DNA of 64,000 bases, from assembly GCA_016208105.1 (NCBI GenBank), contig JACQYS010000001.1, forward strand, positions 62,001 through 126,000. The letters are read 5' to 3'. A model generated the notes under the pieces. The model was not told where the DNA came from, made no database searches, and saw only the letters and a list, made by a program, of their open reading frames with translations. Below are positions 1 to 5,736 of the stretch, piece after piece (position 1 is the stretch's first letter; each line of letters opens with the position of its first letter). The position numbers and the translations under genes were made by a program. The DNA is from Desulfovibrio sp. GTDB taxonomy: Bacteria; Desulfobacterota; Desulfovibrionia; Desulfovibrionales; Desulfovibrionaceae.

Positions 1-600
1 GGCCATGAGCGTGAGCGACACGTAGGGCCAGGAGACCACCTTGTCCCCTCCGATGCCCACCAACAGGGGACCGGCGGCCAAGGGCGCGCCAAGCAGGATG
101 CCCGAGAGGTACTGGCTGGACTCGTCCAGGGGGATGGTGATCTCGCCGCCAGCGAAGCCTGTGGTGCGGATGACCACGGGCGGGTAGCCGGGCTTGCCCT
201 CCCAGTCGAAGGCGGGACCGAGGTGCTTGATCGCGTCGGTCAGCTGGCCGATGGGGCGATCGTGCATGCGGCCTTCGCCATGAATGCGGAAAAGCCCCTT
301 GCCCGCTGCCAGTACAGCTGTGAGCAGTCGGCAGGTGGTGCCGGATTCGCCCACGTTGCAATCGGCCGGTGTTTCGGCTCCGCCCCTGGGCTGACCGCCG
401 ATGCCGGTGATTTCCCAGCCCCGGTAGGTGTTTTTGAAGACTGCCCCGCAGGCGGCCAGGCAGCGCCGGGTGCGGATGAGGTCGTCCGATTCCAGGGCGT
501 CTTTGACCAGGGATTCGCCGTCGGCCAGGGCAGCGCAGATGAACGCCCGGTGCGAGACGGATTTCGAGGCCGGAGCCTTGATGTCTATTGCGGATGGCAT
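1..600 (-). CDS. aroA: 3-phosphoshikimate 1-carboxyvinyltransferase (EPSP synthase), N-terminal part
   Basis: This is the sixth step of the shikimate pathway, joining phosphoenolpyruvate to shikimate-3-phosphate in the cytoplasm. Only the first 200 codons are present; the gene runs off the left edge. The N-terminus begins MPSAIDIKAPASKSVSHRA, the family's substrate-binding start (KxPxSKSxSxRA). It is followed by NVGESGTTCRLL and GEGRMHDRPIGQL, both typical of EPSP synthases. The ATG at 600 lies 2 nt beyond the pheA stop, and a GGAGAGGGGG ribosome-binding site lies inside the end of pheA, so the two are co-transcribed and probably translationally coupled. Confidence 0.95.
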   Translation of the reverse strand, partial: MPSAIDIKAPASKSVSHRAFICAALADGESLVKDALESDDLIRTRRCLAACGAVFKNTYRGWEITGIGGQPRGGAETPADCNVGESGTTCRLLTAVLAAGKGLFRIHGEGRMHDRPIGQLTDAIKHLGPAFDWEGKPGYPPVVIRTTGFAGGEITIPLDESSQYLSGILLGAPLAAGPLLVGIGGDKVVSWPYVSLTLMA

Positions 601-602
601 GA

Positions 603-1748
603 TCACCCCCTCTCCACCACGGCGGTGCCGGACACGTCCAGGTGCGGCCCGGCCGGGTAGCTGCCCAGGATGCGCAGACTGTGCAATTCATTGCGTAATT
701 CGCCGAGCATCTTCCCAAATTCATCACGGCCCAGGTCGCACTGCAGGTCGGCGAAAAACACGTACTTCCATTTCTCGCCGCGCAGCGGGCGCGACTCGAG
801 CTTGGTCAGGTTGATGCCTTCCCCGGCCAGCTTGTTGAGCACGGCCGAAAGCGCTCCGGGCTTGTCCGGCAGGGTGAACAGCACAGATGTTTTGTCGCGG
901 TTGCCGGACTTGGTCTCGGAGGGCCCGATGACCAAAAAGCGGGTCCAGTTGTCCGGCAGGTCCTCGATGCGGCTGGCCAGCACGGTAAGCCCAAGCATCT
1001 CGGAGAGCTTCACATGCCCGATGGCCGCTGCCTTGGGGTTGTAGAGCACACGGCGCGCGGCCGCGGCAGTGGAGTCCGTGGGAACGATGCGGGCCATGGG
1101 CAGGTGGGCCTTGAGCCAGGCCCCGCACTGGGCCAGGGGCTGCGGGTGGGAGTAGACCTCCTCGATGCGCGAGATGTCCGTCCCCTTGGAGAGCAGGGAA
1201 TGGCTTATCTTGCAGTAGAGCTCGGCCTGGATGAACACCTCGTGGCGCATGAACAGATCCAGGCTCTGGCCCACGGTTCCCTGGAGCGAATTCTCCAAGG
1301 GAATGACGCCAAGCTCCGCGTCGCGCAGGCTCACGGCCTCGAAGACCTCGTCGATGGTCTTGCGGGGCTCGAAGTCCGCGCTCTTGCCCAGATAGGAGAC
1401 GGCCGCAAAGTAGGAAAAGGTCCCCTCCGGGCCCAGGTAGGCCACCTTCTGGGTGCGCTGGAGCCTGCGCGAGCTGGACATGATCTCCCGGTAGATGGCC
1501 CGAAGGTGCTCCTCGGGCATGGGGCCGGGGTTTAAGCGCGAGAGCTTTTCCAGCACTTCCTTCTCGCGGAAGGGCTTGAACACGGGGTCGTCGCTTCCGG
1601 CCTTGAGCCTGCCCACCTCGATGGACAGCTCGGCCCTGCGGTTGAGCAGGTTCAGGAGGTCCTGGTCCACCTGGTCGATGGCCTCGCGCACGCCGTCCAG
1701 GGGAAGGTCGCGCGCCGGATCGGCGGGGTCGTTTAAGTCGCTTGTCAT
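603..1748 (-). CDS. pheA: Bifunctional chorismate mutase / prephenate dehydratase (P-protein)
   Basis: This 381-residue enzyme converts chorismate to prephenate and then to phenylpyruvate, the committed branch to phenylalanine. An AroQ-type chorismate mutase helix bundle covers about residues 18-100, with the start VREAIDQVDQDLLNLLNRR typical. A prephenate dehydratase domain follows at about 105-285, with the catalytic TRF motif in NWTRFLVIG. A C-terminal ACT domain (about 295-370) contains ESRP, the phenylalanine-binding signature, so feedback inhibition by Phe is expected. It lies 4 nt after the dehydroquinate synthase II gene. Domain order and length are those of ordinary bacterial P-proteins. 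Confidence 0.96.
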   Translation of the reverse strand: MTSDLNDPADPARDLPLDGVREAIDQVDQDLLNLLNRRAELSIEVGRLKAGSDDPVFKPFREKEVLEKLSRLNPGPMPEEHLRAIYREIMSSSRRLQRTQKVAYLGPEGTFSYFAAVSYLGKSADFEPRKTIDEVFEAVSLRDAELGVIPLENSLQGTVGQSLDLFMRHEVFIQAELYCKISHSLLSKGTDISRIEEVYSHPQPLAQCGAWLKAHLPMARIVPTDSTAAAARRVLYNPKAAAIGHVKLSEMLGLTVLASRIEDLPDNWTRFLVIGPSETKSGNRDKTSVLFTLPDKPGALSAVLNKLAGEGINLTKLESRPLRGEKWKYVFFADLQCDLGRDEFGKMLGELRNELHSLRILGSYPAGPHLDVSGTAVVERG

Positions 1749-1752
1749 GCGG

Positions 1753-2733
1753 CTATCCTTCCTTGATCTCTTCGCTGATGCGCATGCCGAAGTGCCGCCC
1801 TGCCTCGTCCACCTTGCACAACACCTCGTCGCCCACCTTGAGGCTGACCACGCTCACGGGCTCGCCGTCGGCCCTGGTGAGGCGGATGGTTTCCGCGTTC
1901 TGAAGAAAGAGCGCCCCCTCAACATCACCCACCTTGGCAGTAATCAGAAGCATGGGCCGGATTTCCACCTTCACACGGCCGATGGTGGCCAAAGACGTGG
2001 AGCCGTCGGCGGACACCACCAGGACTTCGTTGCCCGAGGAGAGCTCCTCCAGGTAGCGGGTCTTGTCTCCGGGCATCACGGCGTAGGCGTGCACGGCCCC
2101 GGCGTTCACCCTGAAAGGGCGCGCGGCCACGTACGGGTTGGACTCGGTCTCGGCGTGCACCAGGAAGGTGAAGGCGCTGGAGTTGCCCACCAGCATGCCC
2201 TGGCCTTTTTTGAGCATGCTCATGGTGTCCACGCATACCCGGTGCCCGAGCCCTGCGGCCTGGATGGAGGTGATGACGCCCTTGTTGAGCGCCACCTTGC
2301 CCTGGGAGAGCTTCACGTCCGCCACGATCTTTTTAAGATCAGCCGCGGCCTGGGGTAAAACCACGATAACATCCACGCCGCGCTCCAGGATGCCGGCGGC
2401 CAGGCGGGCCTGGTCCAAATCCGCCACCTCGACGCCAAGCCCGGTGGACTGGGCCAGGATGTTTTCCACCGGGATGATTTCCCACCCCAGGGCCAGGGTG
2501 GTCTTCTTGCCCGCCTTCAGGGCGGACACGGCAGTCTCTTCGTCGGCCTTGGAGGAGAGCGTCACCCGGGTGACGTCCCCCGGGGTGAGCACTTCCACCC
2601 GGCCGAGGGCGCGGACGTCCTCGGCGTGCTTGGCATCGGTTATGATGGCGTCCACGCCGGACTCCAGGGCCAGGGTGACCAGCTTCTTGTCAAAGGGAAT
2701 GGCTGAAAACCAGACGTGTTTCACAGTGTCCAC
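1753..2733 (-). CDS. 3-dehydroquinate synthase II (archaeal-type AroB')
   Basis: A 326-residue protein of the DHQ synthase II family first known from methanogens. It deaminates and cyclises 2-amino-3,7-dideoxy-D-threo-hept-6-ulosonate to 3-dehydroquinate with NAD+, replacing the DAHP-based AroB route. Support is the length (about 320 residues in the family), the N-terminus MDTVKHVWFSAIPFDKKLVT, the internal GWEIIPVENILAQ and the C-terminal VGDEVLCKVDEAGRHFGM. The gene abuts the ADH synthase gene (stop at 2734, start at 2733), so both enzymes of the alternative entry are made from one transcript. Confidence 0.93.
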   Translation of the reverse strand: MDTVKHVWFSAIPFDKKLVTLALESGVDAIITDAKHAEDVRALGRVEVLTPGDVTRVTLSSKADEETAVSALKAGKKTTLALGWEIIPVENILAQSTGLGVEVADLDQARLAAGILERGVDVIVVLPQAAADLKKIVADVKLSQGKVALNKGVITSIQAAGLGHRVCVDTMSMLKKGQGMLVGNSSAFTFLVHAETESNPYVAARPFRVNAGAVHAYAVMPGDKTRYLEELSSGNEVLVVSADGSTSLATIGRVKVEIRPMLLITAKVGDVEGALFLQNAETIRLTRADGEPVSVVSLKVGDEVLCKVDEAGRHFGMRISEEIKEG

Positions 2734-3531
2734 CTAGTCCTTGAGCAGTTCCATGGCCTGTTCGACCTCCCAGTTCAGGTGCACCACGCCGTGCAGGGCC
2801 TGAACCAGGCGCGAGGGCTGGGCGTACTGGAAGATGTTGCGGCCAATCGACAGGCCGGATCCGCCTGCCTGAACCGAGTCGTGGGCCATGGTCACCAGGT
2901 CGCGTACGTCGGAGAGCTTGGGGCCGCCCGCGATGACCACGGGGACGCAGCAGGCGTCGCAGACCTTGGCGAAGGATTCAATGTCGCCGGTGTAGGGCAC
3001 TTTGACCACGTCCGCGCCCAGTTCAAGGCCGACACGGGCGCAGTGGGCCACGGTGTCGGGGTCATATTCGTTTTTCACCTTGGGGCCGCGCGCGTAGACC
3101 ATGGCCAGCACCGGAACGCCCCATTCAGTGGCCGTGGAGGTAATACGGCCGAAATCCTCGAGCATGTGGCGCTCGGTTTCGTCGCCCAGGTTGATGTGCA
3201 GGGACACGCCGTCCGCGCCGAGTTTCAGGGCGTCTTCCACCGTGCCCACAAGTGTCTTTGCGTTGGGGAAGGGCGAGATGGTGGTGGAGGCGGAAAGATG
3301 GATGATGAGCCCCACGTCGCGACCGCGCTTGCGGTGGGAGCAGCGCACCAGGCCCTTGTGCATGAGCACGGCGTTGGCGCCGCCCTCGGCCACCTGGTTT
3401 ATGGTCTCGCGCATGTCGATGAGCCCGTCGATGGGGCCCACGGTCACGCCGTGGTCCATGGGCACGATGATGGTGCGGTTGTTGTTCCTGTTGAAAATGC
3501 GTTCGAGTCTGACGGCTTTTCCGATGAGCAT
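2734..3531 (-). CDS. 2-amino-3,7-dideoxy-D-threo-hept-6-ulosonate synthase (ADH synthase, AroA')
   Basis: A 265-residue class I aldolase of the DeoC/FBA family, the first enzyme of the alternative shikimate entry. It condenses 6-deoxy-5-ketofructose-1-phosphate with L-aspartate semialdehyde. The motif VVKVPYTGD holds the Schiff-base lysine, and IIVPMDHGVTVGPIDGL near the N-terminus is diagnostic. It is the first structural gene of the aromatic operon. The leader RNA upstream (3590-3736) forms an attenuator. The ATG at 3531 follows a good ribosome-binding site (GGAGAGGAAC read on the minus strand). Confidence 0.93.
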   Translation of the reverse strand: MLIGKAVRLERIFNRNNNRTIIVPMDHGVTVGPIDGLIDMRETINQVAEGGANAVLMHKGLVRCSHRKRGRDVGLIIHLSASTTISPFPNAKTLVGTVEDALKLGADGVSLHINLGDETERHMLEDFGRITSTATEWGVPVLAMVYARGPKVKNEYDPDTVAHCARVGLELGADVVKVPYTGDIESFAKVCDACCVPVVIAGGPKLSDVRDLVTMAHDSVQAGGSGLSIGRNIFQYAQPSRLVQALHGVVHLNWEVEQAMELLKD

Positions 3532-3589
3532 GTTCCTCTCCTCCGGTTTGCGCCGGGACCGCCTTGCCAGCGGACCTTTGATAAACGAA

Positions 3590-3620
3590 GAGGGCCGCCG
3601 GCTATTCGCCAGCGGCCCTC
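3590..3620 (-). terminator. Attenuator terminator hairpin of the aromatic operon
   Basis: On the minus strand, GAGGGCCGCTGGC and GCCGGCGGCCCTC form a strong GC-rich stem with a short loop, followed by a U-rich tract (UUCGUUUAUC). It lies between the leader peptide and the ADH synthase gene, 59 bp from the start codon, so it is a leader terminator. Its 5' arm contains CCGCTGGC, which can instead pair with GCCAGCGG in the leader peptide (about 3668-3676), giving the antiterminator. Confidence 0.85.
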
Positions 3621-3646
3621 GGTGTGGTTGCTGTCAACTTGTCAGG

Positions 3647-3736
3647 TTAACGTGCACCTCTCCCGATACCGCTGGCGCGGCTAAACCAAAAGTAAAACCA
3701 AAAGTAGAAGCCAGCGGTAAAGTTGGGAGACTGCAT
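3647..3736 (-). CDS. Aromatic operon leader peptide (Phe/Tyr/Trp-rich)
   Basis: A 29-codon reading frame starts at the ATG at 3736 and ends at the TAA at 3647-3649. It reads MQSPNFTAG then FYFWFYFWF then SRASGIGRGAR. Nine consecutive aromatic codons (five Phe, two Tyr, two Trp) mark it as an attenuation leader sensing all three aromatic amino acids. RNA segment 1 (ACCGCTGGC, codons 7-9), segment 2 (GCCAGCGGT, codons 21-23) and segment 3 (CCGCTGGC in the terminator 5' arm) allow 1:2, 2:3 and 3:4 pairing. A ribosome stalled on the aromatic codons would cover segment 1, freeing 2:3 and preventing termination. No Shine-Dalgarno is evident; the message may be leaderless. Confidence 0.88.
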   Translation of the reverse strand: MQSPNFTAGFYFWFYFWFSRASGIGRGAR

Positions 3737-3743
3737 GGCGAGG

Positions 3744-3773
3744 TGATTACCCGCCTGCCTTAAAACATGTCAA
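3744..3773 (-). promoter_or_regulatory. Candidate promoter of the aromatic operon
   Basis: The minus strand reads TTGACA (3773-3768), 18 nt, then TAATCA (3749-3744), a sigma-70-like promoter. The expected transcription start falls at or next to the A of the leader-peptide ATG (3736), which would make the leader mRNA leaderless and fits the missing ribosome-binding site. This is inferred from consensus matching only. Confidence 0.55.
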
Positions 3774-3800
3774 GAGGGAAATTGCTAAAAGCGTAAAAGG

Positions 3801-5012
3801 TCATTTCACTGCCGCCGGATCAAGCCGGTCCATCTTTTTGCGTGTGAAAACCGCGCACAGCGCCAGCGCCAGCAGGCAGGCGGCAGTTCCGAAGAGGAGA
3901 AACCCCACATACCCGAGCTGGTGGACAGCCATTGCTCCCAGCATGGGCCCCAGGAAACCACCCAACTGCTGAAACATGGTGGCCAGATTGGAATTGATGC
4001 CCTTGAACCTGGGCTTGGAGATGCTGAACAGGAGGGAACTCATGGCCGGGGCCCCAACACCCATGCCCAGGCCCATGATCACAGCCGAGGCGTACACCAT
4101 GGACGGGTTGGCGGCCACGGCGGTCAGAAGGCAGCTTGCGCCGGTAAGGACAAAGCAGAGCCGTATAAGGAGCATCTTTCTTATCCGGTCAAAATGATGA
4201 TTCCCCAAGAGCCTGACAAGGATCATGCACACCATCTGCAATGTGAAAAACATGCCCACGTTTTCAAATCCGCGTGCCTGGAAAAAACCTTTGGCCATGA
4301 AGAACACAGCTGAAAACGTGGTTATGTAGAGGGTCATTATGCCCAGCAGCAGGGCGATGGGCGCGGTGGAAACACTCCGTACCATGTCATGGTAGCGTAT
4401 GGACGTGGCCTTGGTATCCCAGGGGTCGGTCCGTTTGGCGCGCAACCCCATGAAAAGTATCAGAACCAGGGCGGGAACAAGGAACAGGGACATGGTCATG
4501 TAGCCGCGCGCCAGGAGTTCCTGGCCGTGGAAAAGGGAATCAAAGGCCGCGGGCACCACAGAATAGGGCAGAAGGATGGCCACCGAGTAGAGTCCGAAGG
4601 CCTGAGCGCTTCGTTCGGCGGGAATTATGCGGACCAAAAGAGTCATGACCGAAGCCGAGAGCAGGTAGAATCCCACTCCGTTGGCCAGGCGCAGGGCCAG
4701 CAGCTCATGCGGCGTGCGCGCGAAGAGGTAGAGGACTCCGCAGGCCAGAAAGAGGATTGATCCCGCGCAGGCGCAGGGAATCGCGGTGCGCACCGTCATC
4801 TTCGGGCTGAAGAGAAGGAAGGAGACGATGGTGGCCAAGGAGGAACTGCCTATCAAAAACCCCCGCCATTGCTGCCCGATGCCGATGAGGCCCAGGTAAA
4901 CGTCAAGGCTGTAGAAAACAGTCGTGTTGCAGTAGGTGAAGAAGATGAGAAGGCATAGCGCCATGAAATCAAACGAAAGGAGGCGGTGGCCGCCGAGTTG
5001 GGGCTTCATCAT
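3801..5012 (-). CDS. Major facilitator superfamily transporter
   Basis: An inner-membrane protein of about 403 residues with roughly twelve hydrophobic segments separated by short basic loops, and a central cytoplasmic loop with GLRAKRTDPWD. It probably exports or imports a small molecule; no substrate can be read from the sequence. The open frame extends to 5072, but that would overlap the upstream TetR gene. A start at the paired Met codons at 5012/5009, just after the TetR stop, is preferred although no clear ribosome-binding site is seen. It is the second gene of a tetR-MFS pair, so the regulator probably controls its expression and the substrate may be its inducer. Confidence 0.82.
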   Translation of the reverse strand: MMKPQLGGHRLLSFDFMALCLLIFFTYCNTTVFYSLDVYLGLIGIGQQWRGFLIGSSSLATIVSFLLFSPKMTVRTAIPCACAGSILFLACGVLYLFARTPHELLALRLANGVGFYLLSASVMTLLVRIIPAERSAQAFGLYSVAILLPYSVVPAAFDSLFHGQELLARGYMTMSLFLVPALVLILFMGLRAKRTDPWDTKATSIRYHDMVRSVSTAPIALLLGIMTLYITTFSAVFFMAKGFFQARGFENVGMFFTLQMVCMILVRLLGNHHFDRIRKMLLIRLCFVLTGASCLLTAVAANPSMVYASAVIMGLGMGVGAPAMSSLLFSISKPRFKGINSNLATMFQQLGGFLGPMLGAMAVHQLGYVGFLLFGTAACLLALALCAVFTRKKMDRLDPAAVK

Positions 5013-5019
5013 AGAGGTG

Positions 5020-5736
5020 TTATTTGGGATCAACGGACGGTTTGGCGCTTTCGGCACCGCCGAGCAGCCCATTCAAGGAGAAATCGGCAACGGCGCGGCT
5101 TATGTCTGCCACGTCTTGGGGAGTGTAGATGTCTTTGCCAGACCACTTGAGAAAGGTGGCGCGGCTTCTGGAAAAGGCGCAGGCCAGCACGAAAACGCCG
5201 AAAGCCAGGGCTTTGTTGTCAAGGCTGGCGCGCGGTTTCGCGCTCGCGGATTCCACAACCCTGGCGAAGGCATCCAGGGCGGGCAGCAGCGCGTCGTCGA
5301 ATATGCGGTCGAAAGCCTCGGTGGGGTCGATGAATTCTCTCTGGAGCAACAGGCTCATCCATCGGGAGCGGGGCGTCATGAGCAGGGACCCGATCAGCCG
5401 GGTGACCATGGAGTGGACGGCTTCTCCGGCTTGGCTCCGGGTGGCGTTTTGCGGAAGGGCCGTGGCCGGGCTGAGGGCTTCCCGGTACAGGGTTGCCAGA
5501 TGCTTTGTGACGTGTTCGATGACCGCGGCGTAGAGCCCTGCCTTGCTCCCGAAGTGGAAGTTGATGGCGGCGGAATTGACGCCGCTCTGCGTTGCCAGTT
5601 CGCGGGTGGACACCGCGTCAAAACCCTTGAGTGCAAAGAGCTTGAGCCCAGCCTCCAGGAGGCTCAGGCGTGTGCGCAGCCCTTTTTCCAGGCGCTGGTC
5701 GGTTTTCGGAAGTGCGGGCAAGGGCGTCATCCTCAT
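5020..5736 (-). CDS. TetR family transcriptional regulator (CecR/DUF1956-like C-terminus)
   Basis: A 238-residue repressor-type protein. The N-terminal helix-turn-helix (about residues 20-70) contains GLKLFALKGFDAVSTRELA and SGVNSAAINFHFGSKAGLY, the usual TetR DNA-binding pattern. The remainder is a helical ligand-binding domain with SLLLQREFIDPTEAF, like the DUF1956/CecR group. It is followed within 10 bp by the MFS transporter gene and is divergent from nothing; the dipeptidase gene upstream runs the same way. A 16-bp palindrome at 5779-5794 just upstream is a likely operator. The exact start (ATG at 5736 or 5730) is uncertain because the ribosome-binding site is weak. Confidence 0.85.
   Translation of the reverse strand: MRMTPLPALPKTDQRLEKGLRTRLSLLEAGLKLFALKGFDAVSTRELATQSGVNSAAINFHFGSKAGLYAAVIEHVTKHLATLYREALSPATALPQNATRSQAGEAVHSMVTRLIGSLLMTPRSRWMSLLLQREFIDPTEAFDRIFDDALLPALDAFARVVESASAKPRASLDNKALAFGVFVLACAFSRSRATFLKWSGKDIYTPQDVADISRAVADFSLNGLLGGAESAKPSVDPK

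Follow-up and report, generated by a model that had tools for sequence, protein, structure and literature searches.

The leader region in front of the gene for 2-amino-3,7-dideoxy-D-threo-hept-6-ulosonate (ADH) synthase in Desulfovibrio sp. is very likely a ribosome-mediated transcription attenuator of a whole aromatic supraoperon, which extends from ADH synthase to trpA. The locus lies in a stretch of 64,000 nucleotides (G000:C1:62001-126000, hereafter the window), in which a first-pass annotation had proposed an attenuator sensing Phe, Tyr and Trp together. Four observations underlie our reading: the anatomy of the leader, its conservation in relatives, the covariation of its pairing segments, and the gene order of the operon. 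Leader conservation, covariation and operon content support the proposed attenuator. The features of the leader locus were as follows.

3801-5072, minus strand: MFS gene directly upstream of the leader and on the same strand
3768-3773, minus strand: -35 element TTGACA, a perfect consensus by sequence
3744-3749, minus strand: weak -10 element TAATCA, by sequence, with an 18-nt spacer from the -35 element
3736, minus strand: predicted transcription start at the A of the leader AUG, placed by the -35/-10 spacing and the pyrimidine at -1 in relatives
3647-3736, minus strand: leader ORF of 29 codons from ATG to TAA, MQSPNFTAGFYFWFYFWFSRASGIGRGAR, read from the sequence and similar in position and composition in relatives
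3683-3709, minus strand: regulatory codons 10-18, F Y F W F Y F W F, read from the sequence
3710-3718, minus strand: segment 1, codons 7-9, ACCGCTGGC, the perfect complement of segment 2
3668-3676, minus strand: segment 2, codons 21-23, GCCAGCGGT, the antiterminator partner of segment 3
3608-3620, minus strand: segment 3, the 5′ arm of the terminator and alternative partner of segment 2
3590-3602, minus strand: segment 4, the 3′ arm of the terminator with an imperfect U tract after it, from a hairpin scan and the covarying 3:4 stem

The sequence confirmed the 29-codon leader ORF and its uninterrupted run of nine F/Y/W codons, five for Phe, two for Tyr and two for Trp. This ORF ranked first in aromatic density among the window's 845 ATG ORFs with 10-60 codons, having nine aromatic codons per 12 against six in the runner-up. 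Segments 1 and 2 were perfectly complementary at codons 7-9 and 21-23, exactly as annotated. Segment 2 also pairs with CCGCTGGC inside the 5′ arm of the terminator, and this alternative pairing was both seen in the window and found to covary in relatives. The terminator (3620-3590) was a good hairpin whose 13 pairs include 11 G-C pairs, although its U tail (TTCGTTTATC) is imperfect. The ADH synthase gene starts 58 nt past the hairpin. Folding of the leader RNA beat 200/200 dinucleotide shuffles (z -6.4). When positions 3000-4200 of the window were searched with 4227 Rfam families, including Trp_leader (RF00513) and T-box, none reached its gathering score; the three matches at E ≤ 5 in this region were to other families.

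Downstream of the terminator, the following genes were identified up to the window edge.

2734-3531, minus strand: ADH synthase, the first gene of the operon (TIGR01949, 401 bits against a cut-off of 299)
1753-2733, minus strand: 3-dehydroquinate synthase II (NF002628, 565 bits against a cut-off of 508)
603-1748, minus strand: chorismate mutase / prephenate dehydratase, pheA (NF008865, 246 bits against a cut-off of 219)
1-606, minus strand: start of aroA (EPSP synthase), the rest of which lies outside the window

The region beyond the edge (L096, G000:C1:46000-63000) continues after aroA with a prephenate-dehydrogenase-like gene (tyrA), a trpE-like gene, trpG, an ORF of 247 aa and trpD, and the operon ends with trpC-like and trpF-like genes, trpB and trpA, all on the same strand. 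The best matches of tyrA, trpE, trpC and trpF were below the NCBIfam cut-offs; gene order and best matches agreed with each other. The 247-aa ORF between trpG and trpD (L096 11542-12285, minus strand) had no NCBIfam match at E ≤ 1e-20. Judging from strand and spacing, the genes from ADH synthase to trpA would form a single transcript. Because the operon reaches trpA, Phe, Tyr and Trp are all its end products, and since it includes pheA, tyrA and trpE to trpA, sensing of the three amino acids would amount to end-product control of the whole operon. The cluster had been annotated as an alternative-shikimate operon; it is larger than this name implies and runs through pheA to trpA. The best named relative of the enzyme among the matches listed was that of Fundidesulfovibrio agrisoli (L016, 95%).

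Conservation of the leader was investigated with 251 occurrences of ADH synthase, collected from 80 named contigs and from genomes of the genus, order and phylum, which gave 226 unique upstream regions, 224 of them long enough to score. The enzyme was present in 137/140 genomes in the order search (E ≤ 1e-60) and in 76/297 genomes of the phylum sample (E ≤ 1e-70), and a chosen subset of the matches was taken from each. With a leader defined as an ATG ORF of 10-60 codons containing at least six F/Y/W in 12 codons, an aromatic leader was identified in 175 of the 224 upstream regions, compared with 8/224 reverse complements and 31/4480 dinucleotide shuffles; the leader frame is therefore conserved upstream of ADH synthase genes in relatives, as the first-pass annotation had anticipated. 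The rate was 141/168 where the enzyme was at least 63% identical to that of the window and 34/56 for more distant enzymes. The 49 regions below the threshold of six included the downstream members of tandem pairs, several Humidesulfovibrio-type solitary copies and many distant genes, together with weaker leaders such as L012 and L015. A leader candidate with at least three aromatic codons in 12 plus a terminator was found in 172/226 unique upstream regions, and candidates also occurred in other parts of the phylum (Desulfobacterota). Clustering of these 172 yielded a nonredundant set of 126 leaders, which is by construction selected for an ATG ORF, at least three aromatic codons in 12 and a terminator, and a few of which, such as L203, are probably false picks.

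Some loci differed in arrangement. In L030, L055, L152, L154 and L178, two ADH synthase genes stood in direct tandem behind a single F/Y/W leader. L069, L075, L078, L087 and L185, which group with the Humidesulfovibrio-type copies, were without a recognisable aromatic leader, and L084, L093 and L095, close relatives of those copies, carried a Phe-only leader. The Humidesulfovibrio-type copies that have no aromatic leader may either have lost it or be under other control.

The first-pass annotation had placed a promoter-like pair before the leader. Its -35 element proved perfect and conserved, whereas the -10 element was weak; a consensus promoter scan called no promoter at the leader because the -10 is poor. 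Enzymes with at least 66% identity accounted for 98 nonredundant leaders; a perfect TTGACA was present in 93 of these and lay 35-40 nt before the leader ATG in 88 (mode 37). At this spacing, the conserved part of the -10 element was TA, with A in 73/88 at offset 25. Since relatives keep both the -35 element and its distance from the leader ATG, the promoter in the window is credible. A pyrimidine occupied position -1 of the leader ATG in 87/88 relatives, and a Shine-Dalgarno match of at least 5 nt was seen at only 7/98 leader ATGs, compared with 85/98 ADH synthase starts. The simplest reading is that transcription starts at or adjoining the leader AUG, so that the leader would be leaderless in 88/98 of the closer relatives. 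It thus seems to be translated without a Shine-Dalgarno sequence, from the 5′ end or next to it. We consider it rather unlikely that an ordinary 5′ UTR precedes the translated leader, through a start upstream of 3773 or through readthrough from the MFS gene. The weak -10 element of the window would suit such an arrangement, and so would the 28 leaders whose enzyme is less than 66% identical (Desulfovibrio-type ones included): a perfect TTGACA was present in 21 of them, 46-68 nt upstream of the ATG in 20/21, and several that were inspected showed a Shine-Dalgarno-like sequence. The scarcity of Shine-Dalgarno matches in the closer leaders and their nearly constant pyrimidine at -1 speak against it. 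The more distant TTGACA and the Shine-Dalgarno-like sequences of the distant leaders suggest that the leaderless form may be derived.

We next considered which amino acids are read. An attenuator that in effect responds to a single amino acid, be it Phe or else Phe together with Tyr, with the Trp codons incidental, would agree with Phe being the commonest residue in the run of the window (5/9), and with the 14 F-only and 26 F+Y leaders found among 181 leaders with at least five aromatic codons in 12. However, F, Y and W were all present in 141 of these 181, a few of which (e.g. L011) had W only outside the run. The relation of the run to gene context was analyzed in 60 leaders with an operon, tandem or solitary context, taken from 137 rows after leaving out 19 in which no leader was called, 51 whose context is unknown and seven with pheA directly downstream. 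All three residues occurred in the run of 44/45 leaders with an operon or tandem context and in none of the 15 solitary ones, which were eight Phe, five Tyr and two mixed Phe/Tyr leaders, none with Trp in the run. Only one of the seven rows with pheA directly downstream read F+Y+W. On well-supported branches, the leader type changed at least four times for the Phe-type and at least three times for the Tyr-type, where a change is a gain or a loss. Phylogenetically independent contrasts between specificity and context numbered two when well supported (six on the best tree), giving a sign test p of 0.5; with just two such contrasts, the pattern is strong and the formal test weak. Leader specificity seems to follow operon content. 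The distribution of Trp codons between operon and solitary leaders and the presence of trp genes in the operon make the sensing of one amino acid improbable, and favor an attenuator responsive to all three.

The genome of the window contains a second ADH synthase on another contig (L097 6999-7796), with a leader upstream at L011 1305-1457. This leader (MRKPQARPFSCYYYSYGFRIRGTWPGEQS) is of the Tyr-type, with the run FSCYYYSYG and no Trp in it. No aromatic-operon partner was found within 1.5 kb downstream of the gene, whose neighbours we take to be a moaA-like gene and a LysM/transglycosylase-like gene. As this solitary ADH synthase has its own Tyr-type leader, the two isozymes are probably controlled separately.

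The pairing of segment 2 with segment 3 (antiterminator) and of segment 3 with segment 4 (terminator) was then examined in relatives. Across the 126 leaders, the mean energy of the 2:3 duplex was -34.1 kcal/mol for the own segments, -27.3 kcal/mol with partners swapped and -20.6 kcal/mol with segment 2 shuffled, and the own duplex was stronger than the swapped mean in 117/126. An alignment (A1) was made of 54 sequences out of 96 references, with most Phe-only, Tyr and some other leaders left out. In A1, 97.2% of the cells over 10 pairs of 2:3 were paired, against 33-42% when the segments were slid by 1-3 columns, and 13 cells were changed on both sides, against a shuffle mean of 2.0; the number of 2:3 pairs with both-side changes was two, which was not above shuffles (141/500). 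The 3:4 terminator was paired in 92.7%, with 14 both-side-changed cells in five pairs. Both helices thus covary in A1, which the first-pass annotation had suggested as a check of its model.

The clearest column pair in 2:3 was informative about the switch. Column pair 132-213 was UA in 40 rows, CG in eight, AU in three and UG in two, and was unbroken in 53/53 lettered rows of the 54, while its segment-3 base (A, G or U) was unpaired against segment 4 in 47/54. A separate motif count, covering 94/126 leaders, gave a segment-3 base that pairs with segment 2 in 78/90 and with segment 4 in 22/89. Because this base fits the antiterminator yet spoils the terminator, it appears to be kept for the antiterminator, and such a base is hard to explain without selection for a switch. 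Some distant leaders (e.g. L111 and L115) use another segment-2/segment-3 sequence, GGTCTGCCCAC with GTGGGCAGACC, following the same logic.

These results also bear on two further explanations. The leader peptide could be a TnaC-like nascent-chain arrest peptide with which the ribosome would detect a free aromatic amino acid inside its exit tunnel, as the hydrophobic aromatic run close to the ORF end might suggest; it is the composition that is conserved, however, and not the residue order (FYFWFYFWF, QYWYYWF, FYFWYFYF), and the C-terminal 'ACG.G' that recurs in the peptides is encoded by segment 2, whose covariation is seen in the RNA, so that we regard arrest as very improbable. That the hairpin 3620-3590 is the terminator of the MFS gene and the ORF a product of chance is scarcely credible: the position of the MFS gene, just ahead of the leader in the same orientation, and the quality of the hairpin as a terminator would allow it, but an aromatic leader and terminator precede ADH synthase in 126 nonredundant picks, the antiterminator covaries, and the -35 element is conserved just before the leader.

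The attenuator also involves the pairing of segment 1 with segment 2. The 9-bp 1:2 helix was free of mismatches in the window and nearly so in sister species, so the annotated pairing stands for the window; as a 9-bp helix conserved beyond the genus it does not, since a complement of at least 8/9 to the segment-2 core was found in only 10/96 scored leaders. This 9-mer test of 1:2 across relatives was thus negative, and 7/96 leaders beat their own shuffles at P < 0.05. By this comparison of sequences, the exact 9-bp helix is restricted to the genus Fundidesulfovibrio. In a looser duplex test, 1:2 pairing was better than shuffled in 109/122 leaders and better than swapped in 100/122, and many leaders probably hold some 5′ partner of segment 2.

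To relate ribosome position to RNA structure, the RNA was folded before segment 4 is made, with the ribosome masking the RNA as far as 12 nt beyond the A-site codon's first base. In this folding model, segment 3 was mostly paired upstream in 98/98 leaders with the ribosome on the aromatic codons and in 8/98 with the ribosome on the stop codon, and its paired fraction dropped by more than 0.2 in 94/98. The pattern fits readthrough upon stalling and termination upon passage. In the window leader, the paired fraction of segment 3 was predicted to be 0.84 when stalled, 0.02 at its lowest after the run and 0.52 at the stop codon. It is therefore one of the 8/98 exceptions, in which segment 3 is about half paired upstream at the stop codon, and in the model it clearly switches off only with the ribosome over codons 20-23. 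The modelled values at the stop codon were 0.21-0.42 in the sister leaders L005, L007 and L008. Among five modelled Tyr leaders of the genus, L010, L011, L012 and L015 barely changed and L014 dropped from 0.89 to 0.52; the values for L011, the Tyr leader of the second copy, were 0.65 stalled and 0.57 at the stop codon. Without a ribosome, segment 3 was mostly paired upstream in 92/98 leaders, so that the support from the model is confined to termination upon ribosome passage. Equilibrium folding with a masked ribosome was uninformative as a test of the switch, since 3:4 won in 5/5 leaders modelled; given this outcome, the switch would have to be kinetic and dependent on timing.

Here, we propose the following mechanism. 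RNA polymerase would start at or adjoining the leader AUG, and a ribosome would load without a Shine-Dalgarno sequence and trail the polymerase. A shortage of charged tRNA for any one of Phe, Tyr and Trp would stall the ribosome within codons 10-18, leaving segment 2 free to pair with segment 3 before segment 4 is made, and the operon would be transcribed. When all three amino acids are plentiful, the ribosome would pass over segment 2, the 3:4 hairpin would form, and transcription would end near 3590-3580. As a stall on any of the three amino acids would suffice, the run would act as an OR gate over Phe, Tyr and Trp.

Related leaders were searched with a covariance model (R1), which matched 59/61 genomes of the order, many of which had supplied its alignment. 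In the genome of the window, only the two ADH synthase leaders were found at E < 0.01; the other 12 matches there were partial, mainly to the terminator end, and were rejected. Among 15 further matches that were inspected, two were more ADH synthases. Trp-rich leaders were seen before DctP-type TRAP transporter genes, one anthranilate synthase (trpE-like) gene and one TrpB-like gene. Leaders rich in Phe and Tyr preceded one DAHP synthase (L278), one AMP-binding enzyme (L272) and a sodium:solute symporter in two genomes (L266 and L267). L266, L267, L272 and L278 come from other families of the order, and L266, L272 and L278 were checked with Pfam; the AMP-binding enzyme resembles phenylacetate-CoA ligase. 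The leaders suggest that L266, L267, L272 and L278 are under aromatic control and hint at their possible substrates. The weak matches L268, L273 and L276 were not convincing.

Trp-rich leaders (at least three W in 10 codons) were found before 9/19 homologues of one TRAP binding protein in the order, a count made without a shuffle control. The loci are L281 (=L270), L282 (=L279), L283 (=L274), L284, L286, L288, L291 (=L269), L292 and L293, and examples of the leaders before these DctP-like genes are MNWWRFW, GFWWWRSR and STAWWWQWW. The genome of the window had no homologue of this binding protein at the same threshold. The position of Trp-rich leaders before TRAP binding-protein genes suggests that the transporter imports tryptophan or an indole compound. 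There is about an even chance, in our estimate, that all these leaders form one Desulfovibrionales attenuator family with a single architecture, often leaderless, whose codons match the product or substrate of the gene: F+Y+W for the supraoperon, Phe-only or Tyr-type for solitary isozymes, and Trp for the trpE-like gene, the TrpB-like gene and the TRAP transporter, which would then be a tryptophan importer. Escherichia coli has Phe-, Tyr- and Trp-regulated DAHP synthases, and the Phe-only and Tyr-type leaders of solitary ADH synthases would be an RNA counterpart of these enzymes if the family reading is true.

The proposed attenuator shares features with several known systems. In enterobacterial trpL and pheL, each leader has a Shine-Dalgarno sequence, reads one amino acid and controls one branch, and the stall picks 2:3 or 3:4; the stall-dependent choice between a 2:3 antiterminator and a 3:4 terminator is as proposed for the window leader, which would differ in reading three amino acids and, it seems, in lacking a Shine-Dalgarno sequence. 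The ilvGMEDA and thrABC attenuators of enterobacteria are multivalent, one leader reading several end products of its operon, but their codons are for branched-chain amino acids or Thr/Ile, unlike the aromatic codons here. Besides the Trp and Phe attenuators trpL and pheL (PMC11802643), there is aroR-aroF of Corynebacterium glutamicum (Neshat et al. 2014), a Phe-Tyr-Phe leader peptide attenuator that is reported to respond to Phe limitation (PMC11802643, PMC4046766). It likewise places an aromatic leader peptide and ribosome-mediated attenuation before the gene for the first step of the aromatic pathway, but with Phe-Tyr-Phe and a classical DAHP synthase, as opposed to nine codons including Trp, ADH synthase and an operon reaching trpA. 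Leader peptides without a ribosome-binding site are reported for C. glutamicum ilvBNC (Morbach 2000) and for mycobacterial polycysteine ORFs (Canestrari 2020), as cited in PMC4046766 and PMC13236596; the leader of the window would resemble these Actinobacterial leaders in this respect and differs in amino acids and phylum, and the mycobacterial cysteine system is called translation attenuation (PMC13236596). The uORFC-13-1 motif before aroF in Acholeplasma combines a uORF containing at least one Phe codon with a terminator (PMC8632094), a similar layout before a first-step aromatic gene; as described there, it is confined to Acholeplasma and environmental sequences and concerns DAHP synthase. 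Among the open-licence literature matches listed, neither this leader nor any attenuation in Desulfovibrio was described, and none dealt with regulation of the aspartate-semialdehyde entry to aromatics. Nor did these listed matches include a Desulfobacterota attenuator that lies upstream of ADH synthase and responds to Phe, Tyr and Trp alike.

A 2013 survey considered a gamma-proteobacterial origin possible for the Rfam amino-acid attenuators (His, Leu, Thr and Trp), with few transfers (PMC3766115). An aromatic attenuator appears here to be widespread in the order of the window (59/61 genomes). With an operon that makes all three amino acids, the leader would read all of them together, and leaders of solitary first-step isozymes have no Trp in their run. 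The many natural variants make the rules that link codons to response testable, and the leader codons may also suggest substrates for unassigned transporters.
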